The notes under the pieces were generated by a model, which was not told the DNA's origin, searched no databases, and saw only the letters and a program-made list of their open reading frames with translations. Both the position numbers and the translations under genes were made by a program. This document shows, piece after piece, positions 9,976 to 45,818 of a stretch of DNA of 64,000 nt. The DNA is from Terriglobus aquaticus. GTDB taxonomy: Bacteria > Acidobacteriota > Terriglobia > Terriglobales > Acidobacteriaceae. Location: positions 2,356,001-2,420,000 of the forward strand of contig NZ_JAGSYB010000001.1 of assembly GCF_025685415.1 (NCBI RefSeq), read 5' to 3'. Position 1 is the first letter of the stretch. The number at the start of each line of letters is the position of its first letter.

Positions 9976-11348
9976 CGCGTCTGCGGGACAAGCCGCGGCG
10001 GACCGGGTACGGCGGTGGCGAATTTGCGCGGCGGTCCTAACTTCTTGCGCTGGCCCGATGGTGCGCCGTTCAACTCGTTCACCAACACCTGTGCCCGCAG
10101 CGTAGCGCCCATCACCACCCACATCAGCCCGTTGATCTCCACGTAGCTCCAGCGATCGCCAAAGCCGTTCAGCACCAGCGCCGAAGTCAGCAGCAGCAGC
10201 ATACCCAGGCCCAGCGCCTCGTAGAGTGGATCCTTGGCCAGCTTCGCCGTACGGAACAGCTTCCAGGACGCGCTAAACATGATGAACAGCATCGCCGCGA
10301 AGATAAGGAACCCGATCAGGCCGGTCTCCACCAGCACCTTCACATAGTAGTTGTGCGTGTCCTTCAGGTTGTCCGTGTGCTCGCCGAACTGGAACGATCC
10401 GAAGCCGATTCCCGTGACCGGATTCTTCATGAACATGTCGCGCGACTGGGTCCACAGGTCCACGCGCTCCTGTGCCGACGCTTCCAGTTGCCCGTTCGCA
10501 TCGTGCGTCATGTTCACGCGTTCGCTTACCGCGGTTGGCACCACGGTTTGCCACGTCACCAGGAACACAACCAGCACAACCAGCAGCTTCCGATCCTTCA
10601 GCAGCGCCAGTGCGCCAATTGCCACCAGCGTTGCAATGTATGCCGCGCGCGAAAAGGCGTACAGCATCGTGATCAGCGTGAAGCCTGTCAAGACGTAGAA
10701 CCAGAACTTCGTCTTGAAGCGTTTCAGCACCCGCGCAAACGCCCAGAAGAACATCGCAAACTGCGTCAGGAACGCGGCCAGCTGATTCGGCCCATAGGCA
10801 ATCGGGCCGCTGGTCCGCTTGTTCTCATCGAACACAGCCCAACTGTGCGATAGGCTCTCCAGCAACGCGCTTCGATCGACCAGCGCCGTGGAGATCGCCA
10901 CCACGATGAGAGCGGTCCGTATCTGCTTGCGGTCTTCCAGCACCATGCTGGCCGCAAACAGGACCATCGGAAGAATCAGATAGTCCTTCCAGGTGACCAG
11001 GTTGGCGTCGTTCAGCCATAGTGGCAATGGAGCGTTGCCCATAATGCCGCCCAGCCACATGGACACATACAGGTAGACCACAAACAGGATCCACACCGGA
11101 TATAACGCCGAAGGCGGAAGCCGTTTGCCTTTGAAGAACGCCCCAAGGATCACGCAGACCACCAGCAACGTCACCGTCTGCGACGCCAGCGGGTAATCCT
11201 CGAAGTGAAATCGCATCGTCCGGTACGGCAGGAACGGCATCACGTAATACATGCCGAGCACCGGCCGCCCGGTAAGCGACACAATGCACATGATCCAGAA
11301 GCCGAGGTAAGCGACGATCGGGATGTAATGTCCTAGACCTGTACCCAT
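9972..11348 (-). CDS. O-antigen ligase / polymerase-like membrane protein
   Basis: A 458-residue protein from the ATG at 11348; a GTG at 11390 would add 14 residues. It has about ten hydrophobic segments and a large periplasmic loop with the Wzy/WaaL-type stretch NPVTGIGFGSFQFGEHTDN, followed by DTHNYYVKVLVETGLIGFL. The H-N-x-Y-x(4)-E-x-G-x-x-G pattern is typical of the O-antigen ligase superfamily. It either polymerises repeat units or ligates glycan to an acceptor; the sequence does not decide which. The C-terminal tail is basic and Pro-rich. Confidence 0.85.
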   Translation of the reverse strand: MGTGLGHYIPIVAYLGFWIMCIVSLTGRPVLGMYYVMPFLPYRTMRFHFEDYPLASQTVTLLVVCVILGAFFKGKRLPPSALYPVWILFVVYLYVSMWLGGIMGNAPLPLWLNDANLVTWKDYLILPMVLFAASMVLEDRKQIRTALIVVAISTALVDRSALLESLSHSWAVFDENKRTSGPIAYGPNQLAAFLTQFAMFFWAFARVLKRFKTKFWFYVLTGFTLITMLYAFSRAAYIATLVAIGALALLKDRKLLVVLVVFLVTWQTVVPTAVSERVNMTHDANGQLEASAQERVDLWTQSRDMFMKNPVTGIGFGSFQFGEHTDNLKDTHNYYVKVLVETGLIGFLIFAAMLFIMFSASWKLFRTAKLAKDPLYEALGLGMLLLLTSALVLNGFGDRWSYVEINGLMWVVMGATLRAQVLVNELNGAPSGQRKKLGPPRKFATAVPGPPRLVPQTR

Positions 11349-11414
11349 ACCCTCACCACTTCGCCAAAGCCGTTGCCGCAGACCCAGCACCGGCTTTCAT
11401 TCGCCTCGGCAAAA

Positions 11415-11451
11415 CAGGCCCGCGCGAACGTTGGACGTTCAAACGGGCCTG
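11415..11451 (-). terminator. Rho-independent terminator downstream of the UDP-sugar dehydrogenase
   Basis: A perfect 8-bp stem CAGGCCCG/CGGGCCTG encloses a second perfect 6-bp stem GAACGT/ACGTTC with a 3-nt loop. Read on the minus strand, it is followed by TTTT. It lies between the dehydrogenase stop (11504) and the ligase start, so it probably separates the two minus-strand units. Confidence 0.75.
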
Positions 11452-11503
11452 ACGTGCTCCTTCTCTCGAAACGGCCGCCCGCCGGCGGGCACTCGCCCCT
11501 GAC

Positions 11504-12865
11504 TTAGCAGCGCACCAGGTTGTCCGCCTGAATGCCCTTCGTCGCGTTGCGCGAGTCCACCACCAACTGGCTTTCCTTCACAATGCGGGCGTAATCGTAG
11601 TCCGTGTGATCCGTCGCGATCAGCACGCAGTCGTACTGACCCAGGTTCTCCAGCGGCGTCGACGTCATGTTCAGGTTGTACTTGCGGCCGCGGCCCACCG
11701 TCGGGTGGTACGGGTCGTTGTACACCACCTCGGCGCCCTCATCGCGCAGGAGCTCAATCAGGGTCAGCGACGGCGATTCGCGCAGATCGTCGATGTCCTT
11801 CTTGTAGCTCATACCCAGCATCAGCACCTTGGCGCCGTTCAGCGGCTTCTTGTGCTTGTTTAGAGCCTTCGCCACCTGCGCCACCACAAACTCCGGCATG
11901 GCCTCGTTCACTTCACCGGCCAGCTCGATAAACCGCGTGTGGAAGCCGAACTCCTTTGCCTTCCAGCTCAGGTAGAACGGGTCGATCGGAATGCAGTGAC
12001 CACCCAAACCGGGGCCCGGATAGAAGGCCTGGAAGCCGAACGGCTTGGTCGCCGCCGCATCGATCACTTCCCAGATGTCGATGCCCATGCGCAGCGCCAG
12101 CACCTTCATCTCGTTCACCAGCGCGATATTCACGCAGCGATAGATGTTTTCCAGCAGCTTCGTCATCTCCGCTGCCTGCGTGGTCGACACGCGAACCGCG
12201 CGGGTAAAGATGCCTTCATACAGCGTTGCCGCCAGTTCCGCCGCAATCGGCTCGTGACCACCGACTACCTTGGGAATGTTGTGGCGCGCCGTGGTCGTGT
12301 TGCCCGGATCTTCGCGCTCCGGCGAGAACGCAACGTAAAACACGCCCGACTCGGCCGGCTCGCCTTCCGGTCCCTGCACCTTCAGGCCCTGCTTGTTGCC
12401 GGCCTCTAGCAGCGGAATCAGAACTTCTTCGGTCGTGCCCGGATAGGTCGTGCTCTCCAGCGCGACCAACTGCCCGGCCTGCAGCCAGGGCGCGATCATC
12501 TTCGCCGTATCCACGATGTACGACATGTCCGGCTCATGGTGCTCGTTCAGCGGCGTCGGCACGCACAGGATGATGGCATCCATGTCGGTCAGCTTGCTGA
12601 AGTCCGCCGTCGCCGTAAAGCCCTTGCTGCGGATGCTCTCGATCTCTTCGGACGGGATGCGGAAGATGTACGACTTCCCCGCCATCAGGCTATCGACCTT
12701 TTTCTGATCGATATCGAAGCCCGTCACCTTGAAGCCCGCCTCCGCGAGCAGCATCGACAGCGGCAATCCGACATAGCCCAATCCGATAATGCCGATTGCG
12801 GCGCTACGGTTCTTCAGGCGTTCCAGGCGAGGGGCAGACAGGGAGGACACACGAGTGGCAGACAT
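11504..12865 (-). CDS. wbpA: UDP-N-acetyl-hexosamine 6-dehydrogenase (WbpA/WecC family)
   Basis: The 453-residue protein has the full UDP-glucose/GDP-mannose dehydrogenase layout. NAD-binding IGIIGLGYVGLPLS is at residues 23-36, and the central domain has the catalytic-Cys motif GPGLGGHCIPIDP. The C-terminal UDP-binding domain carries KVLMLGMSYKKDIDDLRESP. The family makes UDP-HexNAc uronic acid by two NAD-linked oxidations. Whether the substrate is the GlcNAc or the ManNAc nucleotide is not certain. It is divergent from the 4-epimerase, with which it would form a nucleotide-sugar supply pair. Confidence 0.88.
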   Translation of the reverse strand: MSATRVSSLSAPRLERLKNRSAAIGIIGLGYVGLPLSMLLAEAGFKVTGFDIDQKKVDSLMAGKSYIFRIPSEEIESIRSKGFTATADFSKLTDMDAIILCVPTPLNEHHEPDMSYIVDTAKMIAPWLQAGQLVALESTTYPGTTEEVLIPLLEAGNKQGLKVQGPEGEPAESGVFYVAFSPEREDPGNTTTARHNIPKVVGGHEPIAAELAATLYEGIFTRAVRVSTTQAAEMTKLLENIYRCVNIALVNEMKVLALRMGIDIWEVIDAAATKPFGFQAFYPGPGLGGHCIPIDPFYLSWKAKEFGFHTRFIELAGEVNEAMPEFVVAQVAKALNKHKKPLNGAKVLMLGMSYKKDIDDLRESPSLTLIELLRDEGAEVVYNDPYHPTVGRGRKYNLNMTSTPLENLGQYDCVLIATDHTDYDYARIVKESQLVVDSRNATKGIQADNLVRC

Positions 12866-32353: not shown

Positions 32354-32947
32354 TTACAGGACAGAGGGCTTCAGCGACAGAGTCGAAGCGTCCAGCACCA
32401 CGGCCGAACGCTCGCGTCCTAGGTTCCGGCGCAGCACAACCAGGAACCCGACTCCGGTCAGCAGAAACAGCCAGGTTTGCGGTTCAGCCGCTTCGCCCGG
32501 CAACGCCGGCGCTTCCTGGATCGGAACGTTCAGCAGTGCAACAGGCGGGTTGTCCACACTCGCGGTCTCAATCGTGAACGGGCTGGCATCGATAAACTGC
32601 TCTGCCAAGACCTCGTCCGGAGGCGTCTCGAGCATCGCCGTTTCTACCGGTGAATCTTCGATGGCGGGCATGTCGCAGGCAAACGCCACCATGTCTTCCA
32701 CTTCGCGGGTCGACACGATCGGCTTCCGCTTCGGCGGAACATAGTTCGGGTGCTGTTTACCCCAGGCGATCCAGCGCGCGACGGTGGCCTTGCTGTAGTG
32801 TGGCCACTTTACTTCGGTGATCACGCGCTTCACGGCACGCTGACAGGGCTCGACCGCGCTCACACCAACCGTGATCGCGCAGCAGAGGAGGATCCCAAGA
32901 ATGATCCAGGCGGAGAGACGAAGTTTGTACCGTTTCAGAGAGGACAT
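32354..32947 (-). CDS. Membrane protein with degenerate PEP-CTERM-like tail (candidate exosortase substrate)
   Basis: 197 residues from the ATG at 32947; a GTG at 32986 is an alternative. An N-terminal hydrophobic stretch (SAWIILGILLCCAITVGVSA) can be a signal peptide. The middle is acidic and Pro-rich with a basic patch (VPPKRKP). The end reads AEPQTW, then about 14 hydrophobic residues, then LRRNLGRERS: the order motif / helix / basic cluster of PEP-CTERM proteins, with EPQ instead of PEP. A further 16 residues follow, which is atypical. I do not recognise the rest. Confidence 0.6.
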   Translation of the reverse strand: MSSLKRYKLRLSAWIILGILLCCAITVGVSAVEPCQRAVKRVITEVKWPHYSKATVARWIAWGKQHPNYVPPKRKPIVSTREVEDMVAFACDMPAIEDSPVETAMLETPPDEVLAEQFIDASPFTIETASVDNPPVALLNVPIQEAPALPGEAAEPQTWLFLLTGVGFLVVLRRNLGRERSAVVLDASTLSLKPSVL

Positions 32948-33053
32948 AGGCGGCAGCAGATCTGGCAACAAGAGAGTTAGCCCCACACAGCGAACGTGCT
33001 TTCAACTTCTTTAGGGTCTGATGCCCACGCTGATGGAGTTTGTTGTCTTTAGA

Positions 33054-33251: not shown

Positions 33252-34931
33252 CTAGGAGCTCGGGCTCTCCCGCGTGCTGTGCAGGTCGGCCGAAAGCAGG
33301 ACCGCCTCCGCAATGTCCCGCATAGAACGGCGCCGGTGACGGCTCTCTGCCTGCAGCCGCTTGTAGGCCTCCGCCTCGCTGATGCCCAAGTCCCGCTGCA
33401 GAATGCCCTTCGCGCGGTCGACGACCTTCCGGCTCTCCAGGCGGTTCGAAAGCTCGTAATTTTCAGTCTCCAGCCGAGCCCGCTCAATCTCGGCGCCCAC
33501 CAGGATCCCTAGCGTCGCAAGCAGACGGCGTTGCAGGTCCGTGTGCTGATACGGTTCACGGTGCTGCACCGTAATCACCCCGATCACGCGATTCGCGCAC
33601 ACGATCGGAGTGCACAGCATGGCCTCGAACCGGTCCTCCGGCAGCGCTGCAAAGAATGAAAAGCGCGGGTCTTCCGACGCCCGTTCAGAAATTGCAACCG
33701 ACTCGCGATGTTGCGCCACCCACCCCGTGATGCCCTGCCCCACGGCCACGTTCAGCTTGTCCACTTCATTGCTGTGCGGGTTCTTGCTGGCACGCAGCAC
33801 CAGGTGATCCTGCTCCAGCGTGTACACAAAGCAGGAGTCACACGGGATGACTGCGCTCACAAACTTCATGATTCGCTCCAGCACCAGGTGCAACGGGTCG
33901 GCAAGCGCGATCCGGCTGCCAATCTCATGCAGGATGTCCAGCGGTGCCAAGCCGTCCTTGAACCCGGCCATGGTCGACGTCATCGACGACACCTGCTGCA
34001 CGCCGGAGTCCTTCGCCGTCGGCACGGCGCGCGCGGGCGCAGCGACTTCCTTCTCGACCGGCGCGCTCAACTCGGCAGGCGGACGCGGCGTGCGTTTGCG
34101 CGCCAGCGTCTTGCTGGAGTACTGCGCCGCCTCGTTGATCATGAATCCCATCTTTGGTCGCGACGGCTCGAAATCCGGTTGTACGCCGTGCTGCTGCAGC
34201 TCTTCCGTGGTGGTCGGCCCCACGGAGATCACCACGGTCGTTTCGAACGCCCGGCGCAGGTCGGCCGCCACGCCAATCTCGTCCGCCACCTGGAACAGGT
34301 GCAGCACCTGCACGGCAGTCATGAAGAGCACCACGTCGATGCTGCCCGCGATGGTCGAGGACACCGCATGCTGTAAGGGCTGCAGATCTTCTGGCAGCGC
34401 CCACTGGTACACGGGCACCTTGGTCACCGAGGCGAAACGGTTCACCAGTTCGGCCAGCAGTTCCGGGTTGCTTGCACCGTATTCCTGCACGGCTAGCCGC
34501 ATGCTCTGCGTGCGCTCACCCAGCGCCGTGTCGATCGCCTCCAGCACCTCGCGCCAGGTTGCGGGCTCCGTGGCCTGCGCCGCAATCGGCACACCTAGTT
34601 CGGTTAGTGGTGCCTGCGGCTTCACGCCTCGCGAGATCACCGTAAGACCGCGCAGCTTGCTTACGATCGCGTCACGCTCAAACGCCGTGTCCAGGATCGC
34701 CATCATCGCGCGAACGCCCACACCAGTGAAGAAAATCATCGCGTCGAACTGGTCGTTCAGCAGGGCGCGGCCAAACTCGATGCATTCCGTGTTGGAGGCC
34801 AGCGGGATCTCGCGCATGGACGGCACCACCAGCGGGTCGCCGTTGTAGGTGCGGATCAGCTTTTCCACTTCACGCGCACGGCGCGACTCCAGCGACAAAA
34901 CGCGGAGTCCATCGAAGCTGGCGTGCGGCAT
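33252..34931 (-). CDS. HemD-like (uroporphyrinogen-III synthase fold) - GAF - ANTAR regulator
   Basis: 559 residues from the ATG at 34931, preceded by a strong AGAAGGAGG at 7 nt; a TTG at 34937 is too close. Residues 1-265 resemble HemD (LRVLSLESRRAREVEKLI, AMIFFTGVGVRAM, TVVISVGPTTTEELQQHG). A basic Pro-rich linker follows. A GAF domain runs from about 325 to 480 (LDILHEIGSRIA, CDSCFVYTLEQDHLV, TPIVCANRVIGVITVQHRE). A coiled coil and an ANTAR domain end the protein (KVVDRAKGILQRDLGISEAEAY). ANTAR proteins bind paired hairpins in leaders. It is divergent from the nitrate operon and probably regulates it. Confidence 0.88.
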   Translation of the reverse strand: MPHASFDGLRVLSLESRRAREVEKLIRTYNGDPLVVPSMREIPLASNTECIEFGRALLNDQFDAMIFFTGVGVRAMMAILDTAFERDAIVSKLRGLTVISRGVKPQAPLTELGVPIAAQATEPATWREVLEAIDTALGERTQSMRLAVQEYGASNPELLAELVNRFASVTKVPVYQWALPEDLQPLQHAVSSTIAGSIDVVLFMTAVQVLHLFQVADEIGVAADLRRAFETTVVISVGPTTTEELQQHGVQPDFEPSRPKMGFMINEAAQYSSKTLARKRTPRPPAELSAPVEKEVAAPARAVPTAKDSGVQQVSSMTSTMAGFKDGLAPLDILHEIGSRIALADPLHLVLERIMKFVSAVIPCDSCFVYTLEQDHLVLRASKNPHSNEVDKLNVAVGQGITGWVAQHRESVAISERASEDPRFSFFAALPEDRFEAMLCTPIVCANRVIGVITVQHREPYQHTDLQRRLLATLGILVGAEIERARLETENYELSNRLESRKVVDRAKGILQRDLGISEAEAYKRLQAESRHRRRSMRDIAEAVLLSADLHSTRESPSS

Positions 34932-35095: not shown

Positions 35096-35124
35096 TTGAC
35101 GCTCCTCCGGGGATGCCTTATAGT
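35096..35124 (+). promoter_or_regulatory. Sigma-70 type promoter of the nitrate-assimilation operon
   Basis: TTGACG (-35) and TATAGT (-10) are separated by exactly 17 bp. This predicts a start near 35131 and a leader of about 200 nt before the TTG start at 35334. Confidence 0.7.
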
Positions 35125-35130
35125 CCAGTC

Positions 35131-35333
35131 ACCGGAACACCCCGATCGCAACCGCCGCAGGTTTGTGATCCGCCAGCCTCTGTTGCCTGGCACTCGTTCC
35201 CGGTGTTCCACACGCTCCATGACGAGCCTGAGCTTTGCAGGATTTCTGCGCTCGGCCCCCTCATGCCCACGCGTGCCAATCCTTCGACTCTCAGGCTGAA
35301 CCCTTCACGCTTCGCCTTGCTCGGAGAGTCGCC
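35131..35333 (+). ncRNA. Structured 5' leader of the nirA operon (putative ANTAR target)
   Basis: Hairpin A (35144-35170) has loop GCCGCA (35154-35159). Hairpin B (35172-35191) has loop TCTGTT (35179-35184). Both have hexaloops with G at position 4, as ANTAR targets do, but neither has the usual A at position 1. GGAACACC (35134-35141) pairs perfectly with GGTGTTCC (35202-35209) around both hairpins. CGACTCTC (35285-35292) pairs perfectly with GAGAGTCG (35324-35331), covering the GGAGAG ribosome-binding site. No T-rich terminator is seen. Confidence 0.5.
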
Positions 35334-37121
35334 TTGAACGACATCGCATCCATCTCCGCCGGCTTTGACGCTGTGCAGAAGCAGTACCTGCAGGGATTCT
35401 TTGCGGGAGCCATGCAGCGCATGCCCTTCGCGGGGCATACGGCTTCCGGTCTGCTGACACACGACGCGGCAAGCGGCGCAAGCAACCTGGCAGCACCCGC
35501 GCCCGCAGACGAACCCACCTTCTGGGGCACCCCCGTCAGCGATCTGTGCGCGGAAGAGGTGTGGAAGTACGAACGCAATCCCCTGGACTGCTGGGACGAC
35601 CTCTTGCGCCACGCCGCGGAAAACAACGCTCCCGATGCCGAGTTCCGCTATCGCTTCAAGAGCTTCGGCCTCTTCCACGTCGCCCCTGCGCAAGACAGCT
35701 TCATGCTGCGCATGCGCGTGCCCGGTGGCGTCATCACGGCTGCGCAACTGCGTGGTCTGGCCGCCATGGCAGAGCGCTGGGGCAACGGCCGCCTTGACCT
35801 GACCACGCGCGCCAACGTGCAACTGCGCGAGCTAGAACCGCGCAGCATCGTGGACGTGCTCAACACCATTCAAAAGCTCGGCATGACGTCGCGCGGCTCG
35901 GGTGCCGACAACCTGCGCAATCTCACCGCCTCACCCATCAGCGGCCTGGACCCGCACGAGCTGCTGGACGTGCAGCCCTACGCCGACGCTCTGCAGAACT
36001 ACATCTCCAACTCGCGCGACCTCTTCGGTCTGCCCCGCAAATTCAACATCGCCTTTGACAACGGCGGCTGCATCAGTGCCCTGGCAGACACCAACGACAT
36101 CGGCTTCTCCGCCGTGCGCGTTGCCAGTGGCCGCAGCGTTCCGCCGGGCGTTTACTTCCGCGTTCTGCTCTGCGGCATCACGGGTCACAAGCAGTTCGCC
36201 GTCGACAGTGGCTTGCTTCTGCTGCCCGAGCAGGCGGTCGCGGTCGCGGCCGCAATGGTGCGCGTGTTCGCAGAGAATGGCAATCGAACCGACCGCAAGA
36301 AGGCGCGACTCAAATACCTCATCGACGACTGGGGCATCCCCAAGTTTCTTGAGGCGGTGCAGGCAAAGCTCGACTTCCCCGTCATTCACTGCGAGGCCGC
36401 CGAGTGCGAGCCGCGCGGCCCCATTGATCGCGCCGGGCACCTGGGAGCCCACCCACAACGCCAGCCCGGCCACATGTACCTGGGCGTATCCACGCCTGTG
36501 GGTTGGCTCGAAAGCGGCCAGGCACGCGCACTTGCGGACGTAGCTGACCAGTTCGGCTCCGGCGATCTGCGCCTCACCGTATGGCAAAACCTAATCGCGC
36601 CGAACATTCCGTCGGAGCAGTTGCAGTCAGCACAGAATGCGGTCCGCGCCTGCGGTCTGGACTACGAGGCGGGCACCATACTCAGCGGCACCGTTGCATG
36701 CACCGGCAGCCGCGGATGCCGCTTTGCCGCGACAGACACCAAGGGCCATGCGCTTGAAATTGCGCGCACGCTCGATGCGCAGTTTGCAATTCAGCAGCCC
36801 GTCAATCTGCACGTCACCGGCTGCCCAAACTCCTGTGCGCAGCACTACATCGGCGACATCGGCCTGATGGGCGTCAAGATCAACGGCGCCGAGGGCTACC
36901 AGGTCAGCCTGGGCGGCGGCGCCGACAACGATCAGGGCCTGGCACGCGAGCTGTTTCCCGCGCTGCCCTACGCGGAGGTCCTGCCAGCACTGCAGGCGCT
37001 GTTCAGCGCTTTCCAGGCGCAACACACCCCGGGTGAAAGTTTCCTCAGTTTCGCGCGGCGTCACAGCCTGCCCGATCTGCGCGAGATGTGTTCCGCCGCC
37101 CGCATGGAGGTGCACGCGTGA
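35334..37121 (+). CDS. nirA: Siroheme nitrite reductase (NirA family; sulfite reductase relative)
   Basis: 595 residues from a TTG at 35334 with GGAGAG 5 nt upstream; the frame opens at 35235. Two sulfite/nitrite-reductase half-domain repeats are visible (TTRANVQLRELEP near the first; VACTGSRGCRFA and TGCPNSCAQH later). C-x5-C and C-x3-C supply the 4Fe-4S/siroheme ligands. The enzyme reduces nitrite to ammonium with six electrons. Sulfite is an alternative substrate, but NasA and NarK in the same operon favour nitrite. It overlaps the next gene as GTGA. Confidence 0.88.
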   Translation: MNDIASISAGFDAVQKQYLQGFFAGAMQRMPFAGHTASGLLTHDAASGASNLAAPAPADEPTFWGTPVSDLCAEEVWKYERNPLDCWDDLLRHAAENNAPDAEFRYRFKSFGLFHVAPAQDSFMLRMRVPGGVITAAQLRGLAAMAERWGNGRLDLTTRANVQLRELEPRSIVDVLNTIQKLGMTSRGSGADNLRNLTASPISGLDPHELLDVQPYADALQNYISNSRDLFGLPRKFNIAFDNGGCISALADTNDIGFSAVRVASGRSVPPGVYFRVLLCGITGHKQFAVDSGLLLLPEQAVAVAAAMVRVFAENGNRTDRKKARLKYLIDDWGIPKFLEAVQAKLDFPVIHCEAAECEPRGPIDRAGHLGAHPQRQPGHMYLGVSTPVGWLESGQARALADVADQFGSGDLRLTVWQNLIAPNIPSEQLQSAQNAVRACGLDYEAGTILSGTVACTGSRGCRFAATDTKGHALEIARTLDAQFAIQQPVNLHVTGCPNSCAQHYIGDIGLMGVKINGAEGYQVSLGGGADNDQGLARELFPALPYAEVLPALQALFSAFQAQHTPGESFLSFARRHSLPDLREMCSAARMEVHA

Positions 37122-38908
37122 GCACTGTTCCCTACATCCCGGACAACGCGCCCTTCAATCCGGAACAGCGCGCCTGGCTCAACGGCTTTCTCGCCGGCAT
37201 CTTCTCCAATCCGCCCGCTTCCGCAGTCGCTGCTCCTGCTGTCGCCTCGCTCAAGTTCGGTGTCTACTTTGCATCGCAAAGCGGCACTGCGGAACGTCTG
37301 GCGAAGAAGCTCGCAAAAGAGCTCAAGCTGCAGGGTCACATTGCAGAAGTCGCCTCGCTCGCGAAGATCAAGCCCGCCGATCTCGCACAGCAGGAGAACG
37401 CACTTCTGCTGCTCAGCACCTACGGCGAAGGCGATCCGCCGGAGAGTGCTGTTGCCTTCCGCGACGCTCTGTTCAGCGACTCCGCCCCGGAGCTGAAGAC
37501 CCTGCGGTACTCCGTCTTTGCCCTGGGCGATAGCCACTACGAACACTTCTGCAAGTTCGGCATCGACATGGACGAACGCCTTCAGTCCCTGGGTGCTACG
37601 CGTTTCGTCCCAGCGGCTGTAAGCGATGTGGATGTGGACGCGCCGTTTGCACAGTGGGTCGCGGATCTCAAGCCGCATCTCTCGCACAAGCCTGCGGAGT
37701 CCAACGTCGCGATCCAGAACAACGCGACCGGGCACGTCCTCGCAGGAGACACACCGGCCGCACCACCTGCTGCGGAACAGCCTCACCTCTTCACCCGCGA
37801 GAATCCCTACTTCTCCGAATTGCGCGAGCGCCGCGCACTGACGCGTGACGTGTCCAGCAAGCTGACCATGCACCTGAGCCTTGCTCTCGACAACCCGCAG
37901 ATGCACTACCAGCCCGGCGACGCCTGCGGTGTCATCGCGGAGAACGATCCCGCGCTCGTCGACGAAATCCTATCGCTCGTGCCCTTCGCGGATTCCAGCA
38001 GTGTGGATCTGCCGAAGCTCGGCAGCATGGCCGTGCGCGAGGCCTTGTTGCGCCATCTGCAGCCCACGCGCCTCTCGCGCAAGATCGTGCAGCACTTTGC
38101 AGACCGCACCGGTGCCAAGGAGCTCACCACGCTCTTGCTACCTGAGGAAGCCGGGCAGCTCGACCGCTTCATGTGGGACCGCGGCATCATCGATCTGCTT
38201 CATGCGTACCCCGGCGCCATCACGGCTGCAGCCGAGCTCGCGGGCATGCTGCCGCGCCTCGCGCCACGGCTGTACAGCATCTCGTCCAGCCCGGCCGCAC
38301 ACGGCCGCGAGGTGCACTGCACGATCGCAGTGGTCCGCTACCGCTCGCACAATCGTGAGCGCGGCGGCATCGCCAGCACCATGCTTGCCGACCGTGTAGA
38401 CCTCGGTGCAAAGCTGCCCATCTACATCCAGCCCAACAAGAAGTTCCGCCTTCCCGCGGCAGATGTTCCGATGATCATGGTCGGCCCCGGCACAGGCATC
38501 GCTCCTTTCCGCAGCTTCCTGCACGAACGGCAGGCGCTGGGACACAAGGGCCGCAACTGGCTCTTCTTCGGCGAGCGCAGCGCCGCAACCGACTTCCTGT
38601 ACTGCGAAGAGCTGCGATCCATGACCGACAGCGGCCACCTCACCCGGCTGGACACAGCGTTCTCCCGCGACCAGGCGCACAAAATTTACGTGCAAGACCG
38701 CATGATCGAGCACGGCGCCGAGTTGTGGCGCTGGCTGCAGGATGGCGCGCAACTTTACGTGTGCGGCGATGCCAGCCGCATGGCCAAAGACGTCGATGCC
38801 GCGCTGCACACCGTCGTGGAGCAGCATGGCGCCATGGACGCCGAAGCCGCGAAAGACTTCGTCTCTCAACTGCACGACGATCGCCGCTACCACCGCGACG
38901 TCTACTAG
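37118..38908 (+). CDS. CysJ-like diflavin reductase (FMN/FAD, NADPH-dependent type)
   Basis: 596 residues from the GTG at 37118 with GGAGG upstream, coupled to nirA. An N-terminal extension precedes a flavodoxin domain: YFASQSGTAERLAKKLA (FMN phosphate loop), STYGEGDPPE and FALGDSHYEHFCKFG. The FAD/NAD(P) part has RLYSISSSP, VGPGTGIAPFRSFL, FFGERSAATDF, YVCGDASRMAKDVD and a terminal aromatic. CysJ proteins pass NADPH electrons to the siroheme partner, so it should replace ferredoxin as donor for the nitrite reductase. Confidence 0.9.
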   Translation: MSTVPYIPDNAPFNPEQRAWLNGFLAGIFSNPPASAVAAPAVASLKFGVYFASQSGTAERLAKKLAKELKLQGHIAEVASLAKIKPADLAQQENALLLLSTYGEGDPPESAVAFRDALFSDSAPELKTLRYSVFALGDSHYEHFCKFGIDMDERLQSLGATRFVPAAVSDVDVDAPFAQWVADLKPHLSHKPAESNVAIQNNATGHVLAGDTPAAPPAAEQPHLFTRENPYFSELRERRALTRDVSSKLTMHLSLALDNPQMHYQPGDACGVIAENDPALVDEILSLVPFADSSSVDLPKLGSMAVREALLRHLQPTRLSRKIVQHFADRTGAKELTTLLLPEEAGQLDRFMWDRGIIDLLHAYPGAITAAAELAGMLPRLAPRLYSISSSPAAHGREVHCTIAVVRYRSHNRERGGIASTMLADRVDLGAKLPIYIQPNKKFRLPAADVPMIMVGPGTGIAPFRSFLHERQALGHKGRNWLFFGERSAATDFLYCEELRSMTDSGHLTRLDTAFSRDQAHKIYVQDRMIEHGAELWRWLQDGAQLYVCGDASRMAKDVDAALHTVVEQHGAMDAEAAKDFVSQLHDDRRYHRDVY

Positions 38909-38923: not shown

Positions 38924-40519
38924 ATGTCATTGCCGCTCTACGAACGCGCGATGGAGACCGACAGCACCGACCTGGTGCGCATGACGCTGCTGGAAGGCGG
39001 CGCTGCGCCCGCGCTGGTCGAGGCGCTCATCCCTTCGCGCCCGCTCGATCCGGGTGAGCAGTACCGCTTCCACTTCGACATGACCAAGTGCATCGGCTGC
39101 CGTTCGTGCGAGGTGGCCTGCAACGAGCAGAACGGCAATCCTGCCGACATCAAGTGGCGCCGCGTGGGAGAGCTGGAAGGCGGCGTGTACCCGCACACGC
39201 AGCGCACCTATCTCTCCATGGGCTGCAATCACTGCCTCAGCGCCGATTGCCTGCGCGGCTGCCCCGTGAACGCCTACACCAAGGACCCGGTCACAGGCAT
39301 CGTGCTGCACTCGGCCTCGGCCTGCATCGGCTGCCAGTACTGCGTTTGGAACTGCCCCTATTCCGTGCCGCAGTTCAACCCGGAACGCGGCGTTGTCGGC
39401 AAGTGCGACATGTGCCGGGGTCGCCTCGAGGAAGGGCTGGAACCCGCCTGCGTGAACGCCTGTCCGGAAAACGCCATCCAGATCGAAATCGTGAACAAGG
39501 CCGACTGGCGCGAGAACTACGCCGCCGCTGAATCGCCCGGCATGCCGCCCGCTGGAAACACCATCTCCACGACGCGCATCACGCTTCCGGAAAACTCGTC
39601 GGCGTGGCTCGAGCGCGTGGACAATGGGCAGATCCCGCTGGAGCACGCGCATCCATCGCTGATCGTCATGACCACCACCATGCAGGCCACCTTTGGCGCG
39701 CTCACTGCGCTCACCCTGCTTCGCTCGCTCGATGCAATCCACCTTTCGCTGCTCGTTCTGCTTACGGCGGTGGCGCTCAACGTCTCGGTCTTCCACCTTG
39801 GGCGGCCTGCCTACGCCTGGCGCGCCATGAAAATGTGGCGGCGGTCCTGGCTCAGCCGCGAGGTCCTCTGCTTCAGCATCTTCATGCTCGCCATCGTGGG
39901 CTGCGCCGCCGCGTCCTGGGCAGCGGTCTTCGGCATACGCCACGCCGCGCAACTGGTACGGCCCCTCGCCTTCGCCGGCCTTCTCTCCGGCCTCATGGGC
40001 ACGCTCGCCAGCGCGTACATCTACCTGGTCAAAGCTCGCCCAGCCTGGAACACGCTCCACACTCCCGCAGACTTCCTGCTCTCCGCTGGCCTCATCGGAG
40101 CCACGCTGCCAGCCGTCATGCAGCAGCCCACCGACGCTTTCGCAGGCATGCTCCTTCGCTTCGGCCTGCATGTGCCCACGTTGACCGCAAGGGTGCCACT
40201 CTCTGCCATCGCAACATTGTCGGGGCTCTGGGCACTCAACCTGCTGCTCCGCGTCTATCGCCTGCGCGCCTCGCGCATGTTTGAGGCGCGTGCCTCGTAC
40301 AACCTGCTCCGCGGGGAAGCGCTGTGGTGGCGTGTTGCGCTCGCCGTCCTCGCGTGTGCCGCTACCGTGCTGTTCAGTGTCGCACCGCTGCCGGTGCCTG
40401 CGTTGTTCGTCGCAATCACCGCAGTCGCGCTCGGGCGCTATCTCTTCTTCGTTTCCGTGGTGCCGCTCAGCATGGGGCTCACCTTCATCGGTGGCAAGCC
40501 CGCGGGAGCACACGCATGA
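38924..40519 (+). CDS. Fused DmsB-DmsC-type electron-transfer subunit (4x[4Fe-4S] + membrane anchor)
   Basis: 531 residues. Residues 50-200 hold four ferredoxin Cys clusters: CIGCRSCEVAC, CNHCLSADCLRGCP, CIGCQYCVWNCP and CDMCRGRLEEG..CVNAC. Residues 245-525 hold about eight membrane segments of the DmsC/NrfD-like quinol-oxidising anchor (for example TMQATFGALTALTLL). These are normally two proteins. It lies between the diflavin reductase and the nitrate reductase and would feed quinol electrons to the molybdoenzyme. Its stop overlaps the next start as ATGA. Confidence 0.88.
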   Translation: MSLPLYERAMETDSTDLVRMTLLEGGAAPALVEALIPSRPLDPGEQYRFHFDMTKCIGCRSCEVACNEQNGNPADIKWRRVGELEGGVYPHTQRTYLSMGCNHCLSADCLRGCPVNAYTKDPVTGIVLHSASACIGCQYCVWNCPYSVPQFNPERGVVGKCDMCRGRLEEGLEPACVNACPENAIQIEIVNKADWRENYAAAESPGMPPAGNTISTTRITLPENSSAWLERVDNGQIPLEHAHPSLIVMTTTMQATFGALTALTLLRSLDAIHLSLLVLLTAVALNVSVFHLGRPAYAWRAMKMWRRSWLSREVLCFSIFMLAIVGCAAASWAAVFGIRHAAQLVRPLAFAGLLSGLMGTLASAYIYLVKARPAWNTLHTPADFLLSAGLIGATLPAVMQQPTDAFAGMLLRFGLHVPTLTARVPLSAIATLSGLWALNLLLRVYRLRASRMFEARASYNLLRGEALWWRVALAVLACAATVLFSVAPLPVPALFVAITAVALGRYLFFVSVVPLSMGLTFIGGKPAGAHA

Positions 40520-42771
40520 AGCTCCATCGTGGCCCAAGCTCGGTCGACTCCACGCCCGACGCCTCGCTCGCCGACATCGCCGCAGCAGCAGAGCCCATGC
40601 CGCTCTGGTCGCGCGTCAAGCGGCTGCTCGGCATCGATACCGCGCAGCGGAAGTACGCCTACGGCAACGATCCCCGTTTCGGCTACATCTCGGATTCGCG
40701 CGTTGCGGACACGTGGACCAAGACCACCTGCGGCTACTGCTCCGTGGGTTGCGGCATGCTGGTGGGCACGCGCAACGGCAAACCCGTGGCAGCCCGCGGC
40801 AACCCCGATCACCCGGTGAATCGCGGCAAGCTCTGCCCCAAAGGTCTCAGCGAGCACCACATCCTCAACGCTCCCGGACGCGCCACCACGCCCATGCTGC
40901 GGCGCGGCGGCCGCGGTACGCCGCTCGTCCCCGTGTCGTGGGACGAGGCGCTCGACGTCATGCTCTCGCGCATCGGCGCGCTCCAGCGCGAGAACGGTAA
41001 TGAAACCCTGGGCGTCATCGGCACCGGCCAATTGCTCACTGAAGAGTTCTACACGCTCGGCAAGCTCGTCCAGCTCGGCTTCCGCACCCGCAATTACGAC
41101 GGCAACACCACGCTCTGCATGGCCAGCGCCGTCTCCGGCTACAAGCTCAGCTTCGGCTCTGACGGCCCGCCCGGCGCCTACGCCGACATGGAAACTGCCG
41201 ACGTTGTGCTGCTCGTCGGCTCCAACATCGCGGACAACCACCCCATCCTCTGCAACCGGCTCCGCAAAAAGCCAGGGCAGGTGCTCATCGTCGCCGACCC
41301 GCGCGTCACCAAGACGGCAATGATGGCCGACATCCATCTGCCCTTGAAGCCACGCTCGGACATCGCCCTGCTCAACGGCATCGCGCACATCCTCTTGCGT
41401 GATGGCATGGTCGACCGCGACTACATCGCCACGCACACCGAAGCCTTCGACACCTTCGCCTCCTTTGTCCAGGACTTCACGCCAGAGCACGTGAGCGCGG
41501 TCACCGGCTTGCCCGCGGAAACCATCGAGCGCGTCGCGCACCTGTACGGCACGGCAAAGGCAGCCTTCATCGGCTGGACCATGGGCGTGAATCACTCCAC
41601 CCAGGGTGCCGTGACCGTCGCCGCCATCAACAACCTCGCGCTCATCACTGGCAACATCGGCCGCAGCGGCGCTTCGCCCTTCTCCATCACGGGGCAATGC
41701 AACGCCATGGGCACGCGCGAAAGCGGCTTCACCTCCGCGCTGCCCGGCTATCGCAAATTCGATTCCGTGTCCGACCGCGACGAGCTCGCAGCCATCTGGG
41801 GCATCTCCGCCGATCGCCTGCCCACCGCGCGAGGCCTCGCCTACCCCGACATCATTGAAGCCGCCGTCGCAAAGCGCGTGAAAGCCCTATGGTTCATCGC
41901 AACCAATCCCGTGGTCAGCTTCCCTAACTACAAGCTGCTGGAGCAGGCGCTGACCACAGCCGAGTTCGTCGTCGTGCAGGACGGCTTCTTCCTCACGCCA
42001 ACCTCCGAGTTCGCCGACCTCGTCCTGCCAGCCGCCATCTGGGGCGAGAAGGAAGGAACCTACACCAACAGCGAGCGCCGCATCAGCAAGGTGAACGCCT
42101 TCAGCAAACCGCCCGGCGAAGCGCGGCCAGACTTCGACATCTTCCTGGCACTCGCCGACCGCCTCGGCCTGCGCGAGGAACTCTACCCCGGCTGGCACAC
42201 CACGCATGACGCCTGGCTCGAGTGGCAGCGCGTCTCTGCCGGTCGCCTCTGCGACTACTCACCTTTTACGTGGCAGCAGATCGAAGATTTGGGCGGCATG
42301 CAGTGGGGCGGCGACCGTCTCTACGGCGACGGCAGCTTCCCGCGCGAGGGCGGCCGCGCACTTCTCCACTGCGTTCCCTGCCTGCCCTTCACGGAACAGC
42401 CTGACGCCGAGTACGGCTTCATCCTCAACACCGGTCGCACCGTGGAGCACTGGCACACCCGCACCAAGACCGGCGCAATCCCCATGCTCAACGGCATGGT
42501 GCCCAACGCCTGGCTTGAGATGAACCCGCTCGACGCCAGCCGTCTCGACCTTCGCCAGCACGACCGCGTCGACATCATCAGCCGCCGTAGCACCGTCGCC
42601 AACGTTGAGCTGCGCATCACCGGCATCATCGCTCCCGGCCAGGTCTTCATGCCCTTTCACTTCGCAGAGCAGAACAGCAATCTCGTCACGCTGGGAGCCT
42701 TCGATCCCATCAGCCGTGAACCCAACTTCAAACAATGCGCTGTGCGTGTGGAACACCACAGGAATCGCTAA
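40516..42771 (+). CDS. nasA: Assimilatory nitrate reductase catalytic subunit (NasA/NarB type molybdoenzyme)
   Basis: 751 residues from the ATG at 40516 (coupled). A leader of about 70 residues precedes the 4Fe-4S motif CGYCSVGCGMLVG with the fourth Cys in KLCPKGLSEH. NTTLCMASAVSGYKLSFGSD carries the Cys that ligates Mo in periplasmic and assimilatory nitrate reductases. WTMGVNHSTQG and NIGRSGASPFSITGQCNAMG are typical cofactor-binding stretches. The C-terminal molybdopterin-dinucleotide domain includes NTGRTVEHWHTRTKTG. No twin-Arg signal is seen, so it is cytoplasmic. Formate dehydrogenase is a less likely alternative. Confidence 0.9.
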   Translation: MKLHRGPSSVDSTPDASLADIAAAAEPMPLWSRVKRLLGIDTAQRKYAYGNDPRFGYISDSRVADTWTKTTCGYCSVGCGMLVGTRNGKPVAARGNPDHPVNRGKLCPKGLSEHHILNAPGRATTPMLRRGGRGTPLVPVSWDEALDVMLSRIGALQRENGNETLGVIGTGQLLTEEFYTLGKLVQLGFRTRNYDGNTTLCMASAVSGYKLSFGSDGPPGAYADMETADVVLLVGSNIADNHPILCNRLRKKPGQVLIVADPRVTKTAMMADIHLPLKPRSDIALLNGIAHILLRDGMVDRDYIATHTEAFDTFASFVQDFTPEHVSAVTGLPAETIERVAHLYGTAKAAFIGWTMGVNHSTQGAVTVAAINNLALITGNIGRSGASPFSITGQCNAMGTRESGFTSALPGYRKFDSVSDRDELAAIWGISADRLPTARGLAYPDIIEAAVAKRVKALWFIATNPVVSFPNYKLLEQALTTAEFVVVQDGFFLTPTSEFADLVLPAAIWGEKEGTYTNSERRISKVNAFSKPPGEARPDFDIFLALADRLGLREELYPGWHTTHDAWLEWQRVSAGRLCDYSPFTWQQIEDLGGMQWGGDRLYGDGSFPREGGRALLHCVPCLPFTEQPDAEYGFILNTGRTVEHWHTRTKTGAIPMLNGMVPNAWLEMNPLDASRLDLRQHDRVDIISRRSTVANVELRITGIIAPGQVFMPFHFAEQNSNLVTLGAFDPISREPNFKQCAVRVEHHRNR

Positions 42772-42955: not shown

Positions 42956-44215
42956 ATGGCCAGCAGCAAAGCCTTCCTCAAGTCCGGGCACCCCGCCACG
43001 CTTCTTGCGTCATTTCTCTACTTCGATTTTTCCTTCGCCGTCTGGGTGCTCAACGGCGCCATGGGCCCATTCATCTCGGAGCAGTTTCACCTCACGCCCG
43101 CTCAGGTCGGCCTCATGGTCTCCGTGCCCACGTTTGCGGGCGCGCTCATGCGCTTCCCGCTCGGCGTGCTCAGCCAGTACATCGGTCGCAAGAGCGCCGC
43201 GATTCTTGAGATGAGCTGCATCATCCTTGCTCTGCTCTTCGGCTACTTCTTCGTCAACAGCTTCAACAGCGTGCTCGCCATGGGTGTGCTGCTCGGCATC
43301 GCTGGCGCCAGCTTCGGCGTTGCGCTCTCGCTCGGATCGGGCTGGTTCCCGCAGGAATACAAGGGGCTCGCCATGGGCATCGCGGGCGCGGGCAACAGCG
43401 GCACCGCACTTGCCGCGTTCTTCGCTCCCCGGCTTGCGAAAACCTATGGCTGGCAGCACGTCTACGGTCTGGCCGCGCTTTGCATGCTGCTTCCCCTCGT
43501 CGTCATGATCGTCTTCGCCAAGGAGCCGCCCGACACCGAACACCAGACCCTGCGCCAGCACCTGAAGTGCCTGGTGGAAGCCGACGGCTGGTACTTCAAC
43601 CTGATCTACATCATCACTTTCGGCGGCTTCATCGGCCTGTCCACCTTCCTACCCTCGCTCTACGTGTCGCAGTTCCACATCGCTAAAACACAGGCTGGAA
43701 CGCTCACCATGTTGGCCACGCTTACCGGCTCCGTTACACGTGTCATCGGCGGCTGGTTTGCAGACAAGATCGGCGGCATCACCACGCTCTCTGTCGTGTT
43801 CCTCATCGCAATCGCGGGCCTTTTCGGCCTCACCACGCATCCCACGCTCGGTGTCACCACGGCCCTCCTCATGCTGTGCTTCGCCGCGCTCGGCGCAGGC
43901 AACGGAGCCACCTTCCAGATGGTGCCGCTGCGCTGGCCGGTGACCACCGCCATCGCGGGCGGCATGATCGGCGAAATCGGCGCGCTCGGCGGTTCCGTGC
44001 TGCCTAACGTCCTCGGCCAGTCCAAGCAGCACACCGGATCCTACGGCGCGGGCTTCGCCGCCTACGCCTGCTTTGCCATGCTTGTGCTCGTGGTGCTCCG
44101 CGTCGTCTCTCGCCAATGGACACGCACCTGGGTTGGCAAGGGCGGGCGGGCGCCGGGCACCTATGTCGAGAGCGAAACCGTCGTCACCGGCGAAGGCCTG
44201 CTCGTGCAGTCGTAG
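42956..44215 (+). CDS. narK: NarK-family nitrate/nitrite transporter (MFS)
   Basis: 419 residues from the ATG at 42956, with AGGAGA upstream. About twelve membrane segments. The nitrate-porter signature is visible: a Gly-rich stretch GIAGAGNSGTALAAFFAPR in the N-terminal half and LRWPVTTAIAGGMIGEIGALGG in the C-terminal half. RFPLGVLSQYIGRK is the MFS loop-2 motif. It imports nitrate or exchanges nitrate for nitrite. Its position after nasA completes the assimilation operon. Confidence 0.92.
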   Translation: MASSKAFLKSGHPATLLASFLYFDFSFAVWVLNGAMGPFISEQFHLTPAQVGLMVSVPTFAGALMRFPLGVLSQYIGRKSAAILEMSCIILALLFGYFFVNSFNSVLAMGVLLGIAGASFGVALSLGSGWFPQEYKGLAMGIAGAGNSGTALAAFFAPRLAKTYGWQHVYGLAALCMLLPLVVMIVFAKEPPDTEHQTLRQHLKCLVEADGWYFNLIYIITFGGFIGLSTFLPSLYVSQFHIAKTQAGTLTMLATLTGSVTRVIGGWFADKIGGITTLSVVFLIAIAGLFGLTTHPTLGVTTALLMLCFAALGAGNGATFQMVPLRWPVTTAIAGGMIGEIGALGGSVLPNVLGQSKQHTGSYGAGFAAYACFAMLVLVVLRVVSRQWTRTWVGKGGRAPGTYVESETVVTGEGLLVQS

Positions 44216-44277: not shown

Positions 44278-44294
44278 GGCTACGCCGCTGCACT

Positions 44295-45818
44295 ATGCTC
44301 AACGGAAAGGCCAACGGCACAATGACTCTGCTTCGCTCTCTTCTGCTGGCGTGCATTCCGGCAGCCATCTCTGCCGCGCAGTCCCCGGTTCCAGACACAC
44401 GGCCACAGACTCCGGTGCTGCCCGCGAACGCGCCCGCGGGAAAGCCCGTAGTCAATGTGCTGCTGCGCGAACGCGGCAACGCCACGCAGTGGTTCGGCGC
44501 CTTGCCTAACCCTGAGACGTACGGTCACGGCGACTCGCTCCTGCGTCTCTCCCTGGCCCAGCGCCTCCAGCGACTCGACTGGCAACTTGAGATGAGCAAC
44601 AGCGCGGAGCTTGCATTGCCCACCGACGCGGTCTCTCCCGTGTCCGCGCAAGGCCAACTCGGCCTCGGTGGAACGTACTTCGCCAGCAACAGCAACAACA
44701 ATTTTCCCGCGGCCGTTTCGTTCAAGACAGGCTTCGCCCGCTTCCACTTCCACAACGACAAGGGCCTCTTCCGGCTGGGTCGATTCGAGTTCTTAGACGG
44801 TGCCGAAACCACTCCCAAAAACACAGCGCTCAACTGGGTCCAAACCAATCGCATCGCGCAACGCCTCATCGGCAACTTCGGATTTTCCAATGGCCAACGA
44901 TCGCTCGATGGCGTCGACCTGAAGATCGGTGGAACGAACTGGGACGTGACCGCGATGGGTGCGCGTGCGGACCAGGGCGTATTTAAGATGAACGCCAATG
45001 AAGAGCTGAACGTCGACGTTCAATACCTTGCCTACACGCGCTATCTAGCAAAGCAGCGCGTGCAGTTCCGCACCTTCGGTCTCGGCTATCACGATGGCCG
45101 CACCGGCCTGACCAAGACTGACAACCGCACTGCCGCCGCACGCGCTCTCGATCACAAGAACATCCGCATCGGCAGCTTCGGCGGAGACCTGATCGCCGCT
45201 CTGCCCGTTGGTCGTCAAACCTTCGATCTGCTCGCGTGGGGCGTGGGGCAAACCGGCCGCTGGGGCCTGCTGGACCACAAAGCCGGTGCCGTCGCCGTGG
45301 AGGGCGGACTGCGGCTTGAAACCGTCAGGACGAAGCCATGGTTGCGCGGTGGCTTCCTGCGCTCCACCGGCGACAACAACAACACCGACGGCACACACAA
45401 CACCTTCTTCCAGGTGCTACCCACTCCCCGCAACTACGCCCGCTATCCCTTCTTCAACATGATGAACAGCAAGGACGAGTTCGTACAGCTCATCGACAAA
45501 CCCGCAGCCAGGTTGGACCTGCGCACCGACCTGCATTTCCTGCAACTCACCGCCCCGTCGGACTTCTGGTACCAGGGCGGAGGCGCCTACGACAACAAGG
45601 CCTTCGGATACATCGGCCGACCCGGCAACAATCACGGCAGCTTCACTTCGCTGTACGACATCAGCGCCGACGTCGCCCTCACTAAGCAGTTCACATTCAC
45701 CACGTACTACGCCCACGCGTTCGGAAAAACCGTAATCAAAAGCATCTACCCGATCCAAACCGGATCCAACTACGGGTACATCGAACTGCTCTACCACGGG
45801 TCGCATTCCCTCCGCTAA
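44295..45818 (+). CDS. Alginate-export-family outer-membrane porin
   Basis: 507 residues from the ATG at 44295 (an ATG at 44322 is possible; the frame opens far upstream inside narK). The signal peptide is LLRSLLLACIPAAISAAQ. The body has beta-hairpin repeats with WQLEMSNSAEL, GLFRLGRFEFLDGAE and QFTFTTYYAHAFGK, and the terminal strand YGYIELLYHG, matching the alginate-export porin family used for many small solutes. Being downstream of narK, it could be an outer-membrane nitrate channel; that is inference. Confidence 0.75.
   Translation: MLNGKANGTMTLLRSLLLACIPAAISAAQSPVPDTRPQTPVLPANAPAGKPVVNVLLRERGNATQWFGALPNPETYGHGDSLLRLSLAQRLQRLDWQLEMSNSAELALPTDAVSPVSAQGQLGLGGTYFASNSNNNFPAAVSFKTGFARFHFHNDKGLFRLGRFEFLDGAETTPKNTALNWVQTNRIAQRLIGNFGFSNGQRSLDGVDLKIGGTNWDVTAMGARADQGVFKMNANEELNVDVQYLAYTRYLAKQRVQFRTFGLGYHDGRTGLTKTDNRTAAARALDHKNIRIGSFGGDLIAALPVGRQTFDLLAWGVGQTGRWGLLDHKAGAVAVEGGLRLETVRTKPWLRGGFLRSTGDNNNTDGTHNTFFQVLPTPRNYARYPFFNMMNSKDEFVQLIDKPAARLDLRTDLHFLQLTAPSDFWYQGGGAYDNKAFGYIGRPGNNHGSFTSLYDISADVALTKQFTFTTYYAHAFGKTVIKSIYPIQTGSNYGYIELLYHGSHSLR

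Follow-up and report, generated by a model that had tools for sequence, protein, structure and literature searches.

A HemD-GAF-ANTAR fusion protein and a tandem hexaloop element in the nirA leader as a candidate nitrate-assimilation switch in Acidobacteriaceae

In Streptomyces and mycobacteria, the nitrate regulator NnaR combines a HemD-like N-terminal domain with a C-terminal DNA-binding domain, and the genome contains a separate HemD (PMC6277429). How an ANTAR domain reads RNA is illustrated by the structure of the Enterococcus faecalis protein EutV, in which G at loop position 4 (G4), alone among the bases, is read, through Tyr164, Arg142, Lys149 and Glu160. Met172, which is essential, plugs the RNA loop, and the conserved A at loop position 1 (A1), thought to hold the loop open, is left untouched (PMC8934654). 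In a 64,000-nucleotide (nt) stretch of the Terriglobus aquaticus genome (the window; contig NZ_JAGSYB010000001.1, positions 2,356,001 to 2,420,000), a gene that joins HemD-like, GAF and ANTAR domains in one protein (the fusion) lies divergent from the nitrite reductase gene nirA, and the nirA leader contains two conserved hairpins, P1 and P2. Judged from sequence comparisons, the fusion is probably a one-component RNA-binding regulator of nitrate and nitrite assimilation that acts through these tandem leader hairpins.

The reading frame of the fusion is open throughout its 559 residues, from an ATG at 34931 on the minus strand to a stop codon that ends at 33252, and is preceded on that strand by AAGGAGG-TTTGCCC-ATG, a strong ribosome-binding site. 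A first-pass annotation, made from the sequence alone, had read three domains in this frame and proposed a profile search, which bore it out, since HEM4, GAF and ANTAR each scored above the Pfam cut-off (Table 1); HEM4 and ANTAR were placed at the same positions again by genome-wide HemD and ANTAR searches. The Pfam search of the fusion found no NIT or receiver domain and no C-terminal DNA-binding domain, and PRK07239.1 matched the HemD part alone, at 113.5 bits against a cut-off of 273. The fusion resembles NnaR in its HemD-like N-terminal domain, in its connection with nitrate and nitrite assimilation genes (the targets of NnaR, and the neighbors of the fusion) and in the presence of a separate genomic HemD, whereas NnaR ends in a DNA-binding domain and the fusion in GAF and ANTAR domains, with an RNA hairpin pair as the candidate target found. 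In an AlphaFold2 model (mean predicted local distance difference test score 80.7, predicted template modelling score 0.46), an alpha/beta N-terminal part is followed by a low-confidence stretch (residues 286-333), the GAF part, and a helix of ~50 residues (465-515) that leads from the end of the GAF domain into the ANTAR helices; the template modelling score makes the relative placing of the domains unreliable. The best Foldseek matches were Thermus thermophilus uroporphyrinogen-III synthase and PtsP GAF domains.

Three-domain orthologs, 50-75% identical to the fusion, were aligned from 29 other loci, and named carriers include Terriglobus roseus (the best named relative, 75% identical), Granulicella, Edaphobacter, Acidipila and Acidicapsa, so the fusion is no assembly artefact. 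T. roseus DSM 18391 (L063) shows the gene arrangement seen in the window. A genome survey, also suggested by the first-pass annotation, located the fusion in 34 of 200 sampled Acidobacteriaceae genomes (G numbers; 166 lack it), a count that includes two genomes in which it is split over two frames (G211 and G285), and nir or nas genes lay within the fetched stretch, short in some cases, at 34 of the 45 named fusion loci (L063-L107 among the fetched loci, or L numbers). NirA orthologs of at least 58% identity were found in 24 of the 200 genomes, one of them as a fragment (G232), and all 24 contain the fusion; the fusion and NirA counts are among the matches listed, the weakest of which had E-values far weaker than those counted. 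The HemD-GAF-ANTAR architecture is thus real and widespread in Acidobacteriaceae. A literature search of titles and abstracts, which extended to ANTAR and nitrate control in Acidobacteria and in which subscription journals were thinly covered, returned no description of this architecture, as the first-pass annotation had supposed.

The annotation had placed a putative RNA target in the leader at 35131-35333, and a good candidate for that target does occur there, at 35168-35233, in the form of a tandem hexaloop of ANTAR type that is conserved and covaries. When 31 nirA leaders were aligned, one sharply conserved block emerged, GCTC-CNNGAN-GAGC, which is P2; in one clade it reads GCAC-CATGCC-GTGC, a hairpin with a paired change, and P2 was found in all 31 leaders. 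The second hairpin, P1, lies upstream of it (loop-to-loop distance 30-57 nt where P1 was scored) and its stem varies from leader to leader (GGCAC/GTGCC, AAACTC/GAGTTT, GAGAC/GTCTC, GGGTGC/GCACCC), yet its loop constantly has C or U at position 1, G at position 4 and a C:G closing pair; some leaders have P1 loops of seven or eight bases. A qualifying P1 is present in 24 of the 31 leaders versus 0.8 expected from shuffles, to which the identical choice was applied as a control because P1 was picked by stem score, and none of the 31 has a qualifying P1 with A at loop position 1. Among the 29 distinct leaders, loop position 1 of P1 is C in 22 and T in seven and that of P2 is C in 29, C1 being part of the pattern that placed P2 and adopted after the alignment had displayed it; position 6 of the P1 loop, which had no part in the choice of P1, is a pyrimidine in 29/29. 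P1 was placed by hand in L064, L070, L073 and L076, and elsewhere by stem score with G4 required. Five duplicates were dropped from the alignment, and five NirA genes (L098, L101, L165, L173 and L180) lacked the anchor motif; each of these five is preceded by a P2-like hairpin. A possible leader peptide is also visible in the alignment.

Covariation was counted first in 25 of the 31 leaders, which were also used for an alignment of their own and for covariance model R1; those left out were L070, L073 (8-base loop), L076 (weak stem), L100 (P2 deletion), and L168 and L171 (copies or near-copies). In these 25 leaders pairing holds in 84% of cells, and 40 cells show changes on both sides, versus 14.9 in shuffles; pairing drops to 28-42% when the partners are slid by 1-3 columns. 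With all 31 leaders counted (29 distinct), pairs form in 236 of 261 core cells, and changes on both sides are seen in 31 (shuffles: mean 8.4, maximum 18). Such behavior bears on the proposal that a different nitrate regulator uses the inverted repeats as DNA operators, the fusion being merely adjacent. A short inverted repeat close to a promoter is what an operator typically looks like. DNA is also what NnaR binds (PMC6277429), but compensated changes in the P1 arms around a loop that keeps its position-1 pyrimidine, G4 and C:G closing pair are what an RNA hairpin, and not an operator, would produce, the element is downstream of a promoter-like site, and it tracks the fusion in 22 of 22 genomes, before nirB too, so this proposal is very unlikely.

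Compared with described ANTAR-target RNAs, the element has the two hairpins, the C:G-closed hexaloops and G4. A close counterpart is Klebsiella oxytoca NasR, a NIT-ANTAR protein that is likewise a one-component nitrate regulator and whose leader has tandem C:G-closed G4 hexaloops (PMC7496416); the fusion differs in having HemD-like and GAF domains in place of NIT, C/U in place of A1, and no enrichment of terminators. Actinobacterial ANTAR targets are also dual stem-loops with hexaloops, with terminators for only few (PMC8164766), but more than half of them have A1, compared with none of the 31 nirA leaders for qualifying P1 hairpins. The element thus departs from the described ANTAR target at loop position 1 and in having no terminator. 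Classical paired hexaloops with A1 and G4 were rejected as the target, as one pair was found in 21 nirA leaders (L072, spacing 22) and none in the window; the C/U variant was recognized only after the leader alignment. Rfam gave no match at gathering score in the window, and none at E up to 1 in four element loci.

The element follows the fusion across genomes. R1, built from nirA leaders only, gives one strong match in the genome of the window (38.2 bits; the next is 15.8). At a limit of 28 bits, which was picked after the result of the 200-genome search had been seen, and in a search whose stricter filters lose weak matches, R1 matches 22 of the 200 genomes; every one of these has the fusion, and the 166 genomes without it have no such match, their best scoring 24.6 bits. 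Three genomes that have the fusion and no NirA (G248, G255 and G317) have their match upstream of nirB, which encodes a nitrite reductase of another family and had no share in the training of R1. A search of 62 fusion loci with R1 returned 58 matches at E up to 1. Of the 34 that score at least 28 bits, 33 sit 74-188 nt upstream of a NirA match and the other (L102) ends at a contig edge. The 24 weaker ones comprise eight upstream of a separate nas operon, 142-203 nt from its opening iron-sulfur gene (three consist of P2 only, and in several of these operon copies P1 has a seven-base loop that still has C/U at 1 and G at 4), five upstream of NirA, two upstream of a porin (L068, L180), two inside a coding region and seven elsewhere. 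In the last group, an outer-membrane-type gene that is Phenol_MetA_deg-like and lies on the opposite strand follows five of the matches (L065, L066, L072, L082, L175), one precedes the fusion gene itself (L078), and one is unclear (L077).

At the five loci with the Phenol_MetA_deg-like gene, P1-like hairpins with the stem GACAC/GTGTC and the loop CNNGAY were noted, at L065 2744-2779, L066 8730-8792, L072 8769-8838, L082 1417-1485 and L175 8312-8344 (+); the gene after them is divergent and of the outer-membrane type, with Phenol_MetA_deg in two of four tested, a hint that it may share the control of the fusion.

Stand-alone GAF-ANTAR proteins of Acidobacteriota are 38-63% identical to the C-terminal half of the fusion and differ from it in having no HemD part; no functional description of them was found in the literature. 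R1 gave three weak matches in 52 loci without the fusion. At L146 a match of 14.6 bits (loops ATTGTC and CCTGAC), a weak tandem hairpin, lies just upstream of nirB beside a stand-alone GAF-ANTAR gene. Five genomes with GAF-ANTAR and without the fusion contain nirB: in G284 it is preceded by two C:G-closed G4 hexaloops with a different P2 stem, in G233 by one strong and one weak hairpin, and in G265 and G278, where nirB is within a nas operon, the leader has a single good hairpin, its partner is doubtful and no pair there is convincing; the nirB stretch of G280 ends at a contig edge. Another nitrogen link was seen at L145, where a stand-alone GAF-ANTAR gene (7671-8417) lies beside what by eye resembles a urea or branched-chain ABC transporter (UrtB-UrtE).

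The residues with which EutV holds G4 (R142, K149, E160, Y164) correspond to R501, K508, E519 and Y523 of the fusion and are invariant in 59/59 fusions, so by its domain and its G4 contacts the fusion can be placed among the ANTAR regulators. Differences from EutV, a REC-ANTAR protein, are Arg531 in place of Met172, the lack of a receiver domain, with no kinase partner implied, and the C/U-first loops. Arg also occupies the plug position in 13/13 stand-alone GAF-ANTARs and in 12 of a class sample of 21 ANTARs, some of them GAF-ANTARs, the other nine having Met, which indicates that a Met plug is not a strict mark of the family. G4 and the residues for reading it are thus both kept, while the plug and loop position 1 are both altered. 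These two changes may belong together, though the link is not strict, as L146 has an Arg plug plus one A1 loop. The replacement, in a whole clade, of both the Met172 that is essential in EutV and the conserved A1 amounts to a natural experiment on ANTAR specificity.

In the mechanism we propose for the fusion, the ANTAR domain would bind the P1-P2 pair of the nirA operon leader and, in relatives, also such pairs in the leaders of separately transcribed nas and nirB genes. The recognized hairpin would have a C:G-closed stem and a usually six-base loop with C/U at position 1 and G at position 4, the latter held by the same residues as in EutV. Coiled-coil formation and dimerization are probable for helix 465-515. 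The most likely input of the HemD-like domain is a siroheme-route tetrapyrrole, and that of the GAF domain is nitrogen status; the state of these two domains would decide whether the dimer binds RNA. Binding would stabilize P1 and P2, most likely switching the operon on, and could act on Rho, on other termination, on translation or on message stability. The sigma-70-like promoter upstream (Table 1) has promoter-like counterparts similarly placed in relatives (mean score 7.8 versus 6.6 in shuffles) and ends ~46 nt before P1, so the hairpins should be transcribed before nirA, which starts ~107 nt after P2.

Several results weigh against this mechanism or against an exclusive role in nitrate use. 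Loop position 1 is C/U, unlike the A of described targets, and the EutV plug is Arg531 in 59/59 fusions. The 66-nt element folded alone has P1 but not P2 in its minimum-energy structure, so P2 would need protein or other context, and for the full leader the folding advantage over shuffles is small (z -1.4). Because of common ancestry among the leaders, counts across them are not independent. No R1 match of at least 28 bits was found in 12 of the 34 fusion genomes, among them the incomplete G266 and G303, which have NasA; nirA is preceded in G227 and G336 by a seven-base P1 and a normal P2, with spacings of 62 and 52 nt, and in G231 by a match of 22.5 bits, and G232 and G309 showed no convincing hairpin pair. 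At 11 of the 45 named loci the fetched stretch contains no nir or nas gene, and five near-complete fusion genomes (G083, G040, G349, G361, G328) yielded no NirA, NirB or NasA ortholog; the G083 fusion is 69% identical to that of the window. Several loci without nir or nas genes form a second syntenic group in Edaphobacter and relatives, and R1 found no match in L083-L089, L106, L107, L162, L177 or L178; in loci without nitrate genes and R1 match, the fusion would have to have other targets or none. As a side observation, the fusion lies at ~10000-11670 in each of L083-L089 and L106, away from nitrate genes and in several cases with common neighbors, and KBS 146 and Edaphobacter sp. Chal_Metagen_Bin11 each have one nitrate-linked and one nitrate-remote copy.

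The mode of control proposed by the first-pass annotation, antitermination, fared less well than its view of the fusion as an RNA-binding counterpart of NnaR, to which the occurrence of the element with the fusion in 22 of 22 genomes lends support. No intrinsic terminator was found between the hairpins and nirA in the window, and an attenuator in which P2 competes with a terminator is not supported, which also counts against the mechanism above: terminator-like hairpins (-8 kcal/mol or below) occur in nine of 31 leaders versus 10.6 expected from shuffles, and the individual candidates seen in several leaders are no commoner than in shuffles. A helix competing with P2 was rejected as a general feature (mean z 0.7 over 31 leaders) and is tentative for the Terriglobus-type group, in which a segment 78-131 nt downstream offers the P2 3' arm a possible partner (single p from <0.005 to 0.38 in nine leaders), in two compensating versions, GAGCCTGAG/CTCAGGCTC and GAGCCCAGA/TCTGGGCTC.

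The lack of terminator enrichment would also suit a protein that binds the hairpins and represses, blocking translation or shortening message life when nitrogen is plentiful, as actinobacterial ANTAR targets are often without terminators and translational repression is reported for mycobacteria (PMC8164766). However, P2 ends ~95 nt before the likely nirA ribosome-binding site and so cannot cover it directly, and NasR promotes expression by antitermination (PMC7496416), which leaves repression somewhat unlikely. Activation is favored, as for NasR, with a Rho-type or structural block that would be overcome by binding.

A reading of the fusion as chiefly an active uroporphyrinogen-III synthase for siroheme supply, in which GAF-ANTAR would be an accessory part, is rather unlikely. 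Few catalytic residues are fixed in HemD-like proteins. The uroporphyrinogen-III synthase equivalog gave 127.8 bits for the fusion against a cut-off of 233; a stand-alone relative, at 147.8, also falls below it. In favor of the enzyme are the HEM4 score above the Pfam cut-off and three observations on other loci: nine of the 35 loci with a stand-alone HemD-like gene have a precorrin-2-dehydrogenase-like gene in the stretch (by Pfam for one of them), in L265 the end of the fusion gene is overlapped by a gene for a tetrapyrrole methylase, and the long HemD protein of L134 (9980-11917, on a Methylomirabilis-type contig), rejected as a regulator, is a HemD-HemE enzyme fusion (synthase plus decarboxylase). 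But the separate HemD of the window's genome scores far better than the HemD part of the fusion (177.8 versus 100.3 bits), and the HemD-like domain of NnaR is reported to be inactive (PMC6277429).

The reported inactivity of the NnaR domain together with the nine loci with a precorrin-2-dehydrogenase-like gene led us to guess that a tetrapyrrole is the signal of the HemD-like domain. The GAF domain resembles that of EI-Ntr in profile and Foldseek comparisons, and the latter binds glutamine (PMC4848567), which makes nitrogen status a guess for the second signal; conserved cysteines (a CxxC pair, C364 and C367, invariant in 59/59, and C445 in 56/59) make a redox, metal (iron) or NO signal also possible, and all of these signals are guesses. 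Among the 166 family genomes without the fusion, 17 contain a HemD-like gene, 40 a GAF-ANTAR gene and 11 both (Fisher p 2e-4, not corrected for kinship), and in L143 and L144 the two genes are ~2 kb apart, suggesting that the fused domains act together. A bolder version, which we regard as a tentative possibility, is that an Arg plug and pyrimidine-1/G4 loops form a second ANTAR code, that the HemD-derived domain reads a siroheme precursor and the GAF domain nitrogen status, so that siroheme-dependent nitrite reductase is made only when the cofactor route is supplied and nitrogen is wanted, and that related genomes carry the regulator as separate HemD-like and GAF-ANTAR genes.

It is most unlikely that some other RNA-binding factor recognizes the hairpins, or that they belong to an unknown leader RNA, with the ANTAR domain acting elsewhere. 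Although the 11 named loci without nir or nas genes nearby mean that the fusion must have a role without the element, tandem hexaloops with G4 and a C:G closing pair are the signature by which ANTAR targets have been described (PMC7496416, PMC3369931), and the fusion is the sole ANTAR match in the genome of the window.

A regulator architecture for which the literature search returned no description is thereby paired with a precise candidate RNA target, providing a candidate switch for nitrate use in Acidobacteriaceae. The pairing suggests that HemD-like domains were taken up by nitrate regulators of both kinds, those that bind DNA (NnaR) and those that bind RNA, and turns the identity of the ligand of these domains into a question that experiments can address.

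Table 1. Features of the fusion gene, the nirA leader and the neighboring genes, in window coordinates (aa, amino acids).
Feature	Position	Strand	Evidence or remark
HemD-GAF-ANTAR fusion gene	33252..34931	(-)	559 aa, stop codon included
HEM4 (HemD-like) domain, aa 22-265	34137..34868	(-)	Pfam 97.7 bits (cut-off 27.5), E 7.1e-28
GAF domain, aa 347-482	33486..33893	(-)	Pfam 58.2 bits (cut-off 22.4), E 1.6e-15
ANTAR domain, aa 494-545	33297..33452	(-)	Pfam 68 bits (cut-off 27.3), E 6.1e-19
Sigma-70-like promoter TTGACG-17-TATAGT	35096..35124	(+)	10/12 consensus bases; 1 found, 0.2 expected
Tandem hexaloop RNA element (R1 match)	35168..35233	(+)	38.2 bits; window sequence is one of the 25 training leaders
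Hairpin P1 gccagcc[TCTGTT]gcctggc	35172..35191, loop 35179-35184	(+)	Leader alignment, pairing counts
Hairpin P2 gctc[CATGAC]gagc	35214..35227, loop 35218-35223	(+)	Leader alignment, pairing counts
CTCAGGCT, possible competing partner of P2 3' arm (tentative)	35290..35297	(+)	8 bp, shuffle p 0.06 in window
GGAG, likely nirA ribosome-binding site (nirA start TTG at 35334)	35323..35326	(+)	Read off sequence
nirA, NirA family nitrite reductase	35334..37121	(+)	767 bits, cut-off 523; divergent from fusion
CysJ-like flavoprotein reductase (start uncertain)	37118..38908	(+)	Profile searches
DmsB-like 4Fe-4S protein, long C-terminal part	38924..40519	(+)	Profile searches
Molybdopterin oxidoreductase (start uncertain)	40507..42771	(+)	Pfam Molybdopterin; nitrate reductase by context
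NarK-like MFS transporter	42965..44215	(+)	MFS_1; TIGR00886 239 bits, under cut-off 311.7
Outer-membrane porin-like protein (Alginate_exp)	44289..45818	(+)	Last gene of likely operon

Among the neighboring genes, the nitrite reductase that the first-pass annotation had read next door to the fusion was confirmed by a NirA family match well above its cut-off. The molybdopterin oxidoreductase gave no nitrate-reductase equivalog match at its cut-off. On the far side of the fusion gene, a frame of 210 residues on the minus strand (32354-32986) ends in AEPQTWLFLLTGVGFLVVLRR, which by eye resembles a PEP-CTERM sorting signal.

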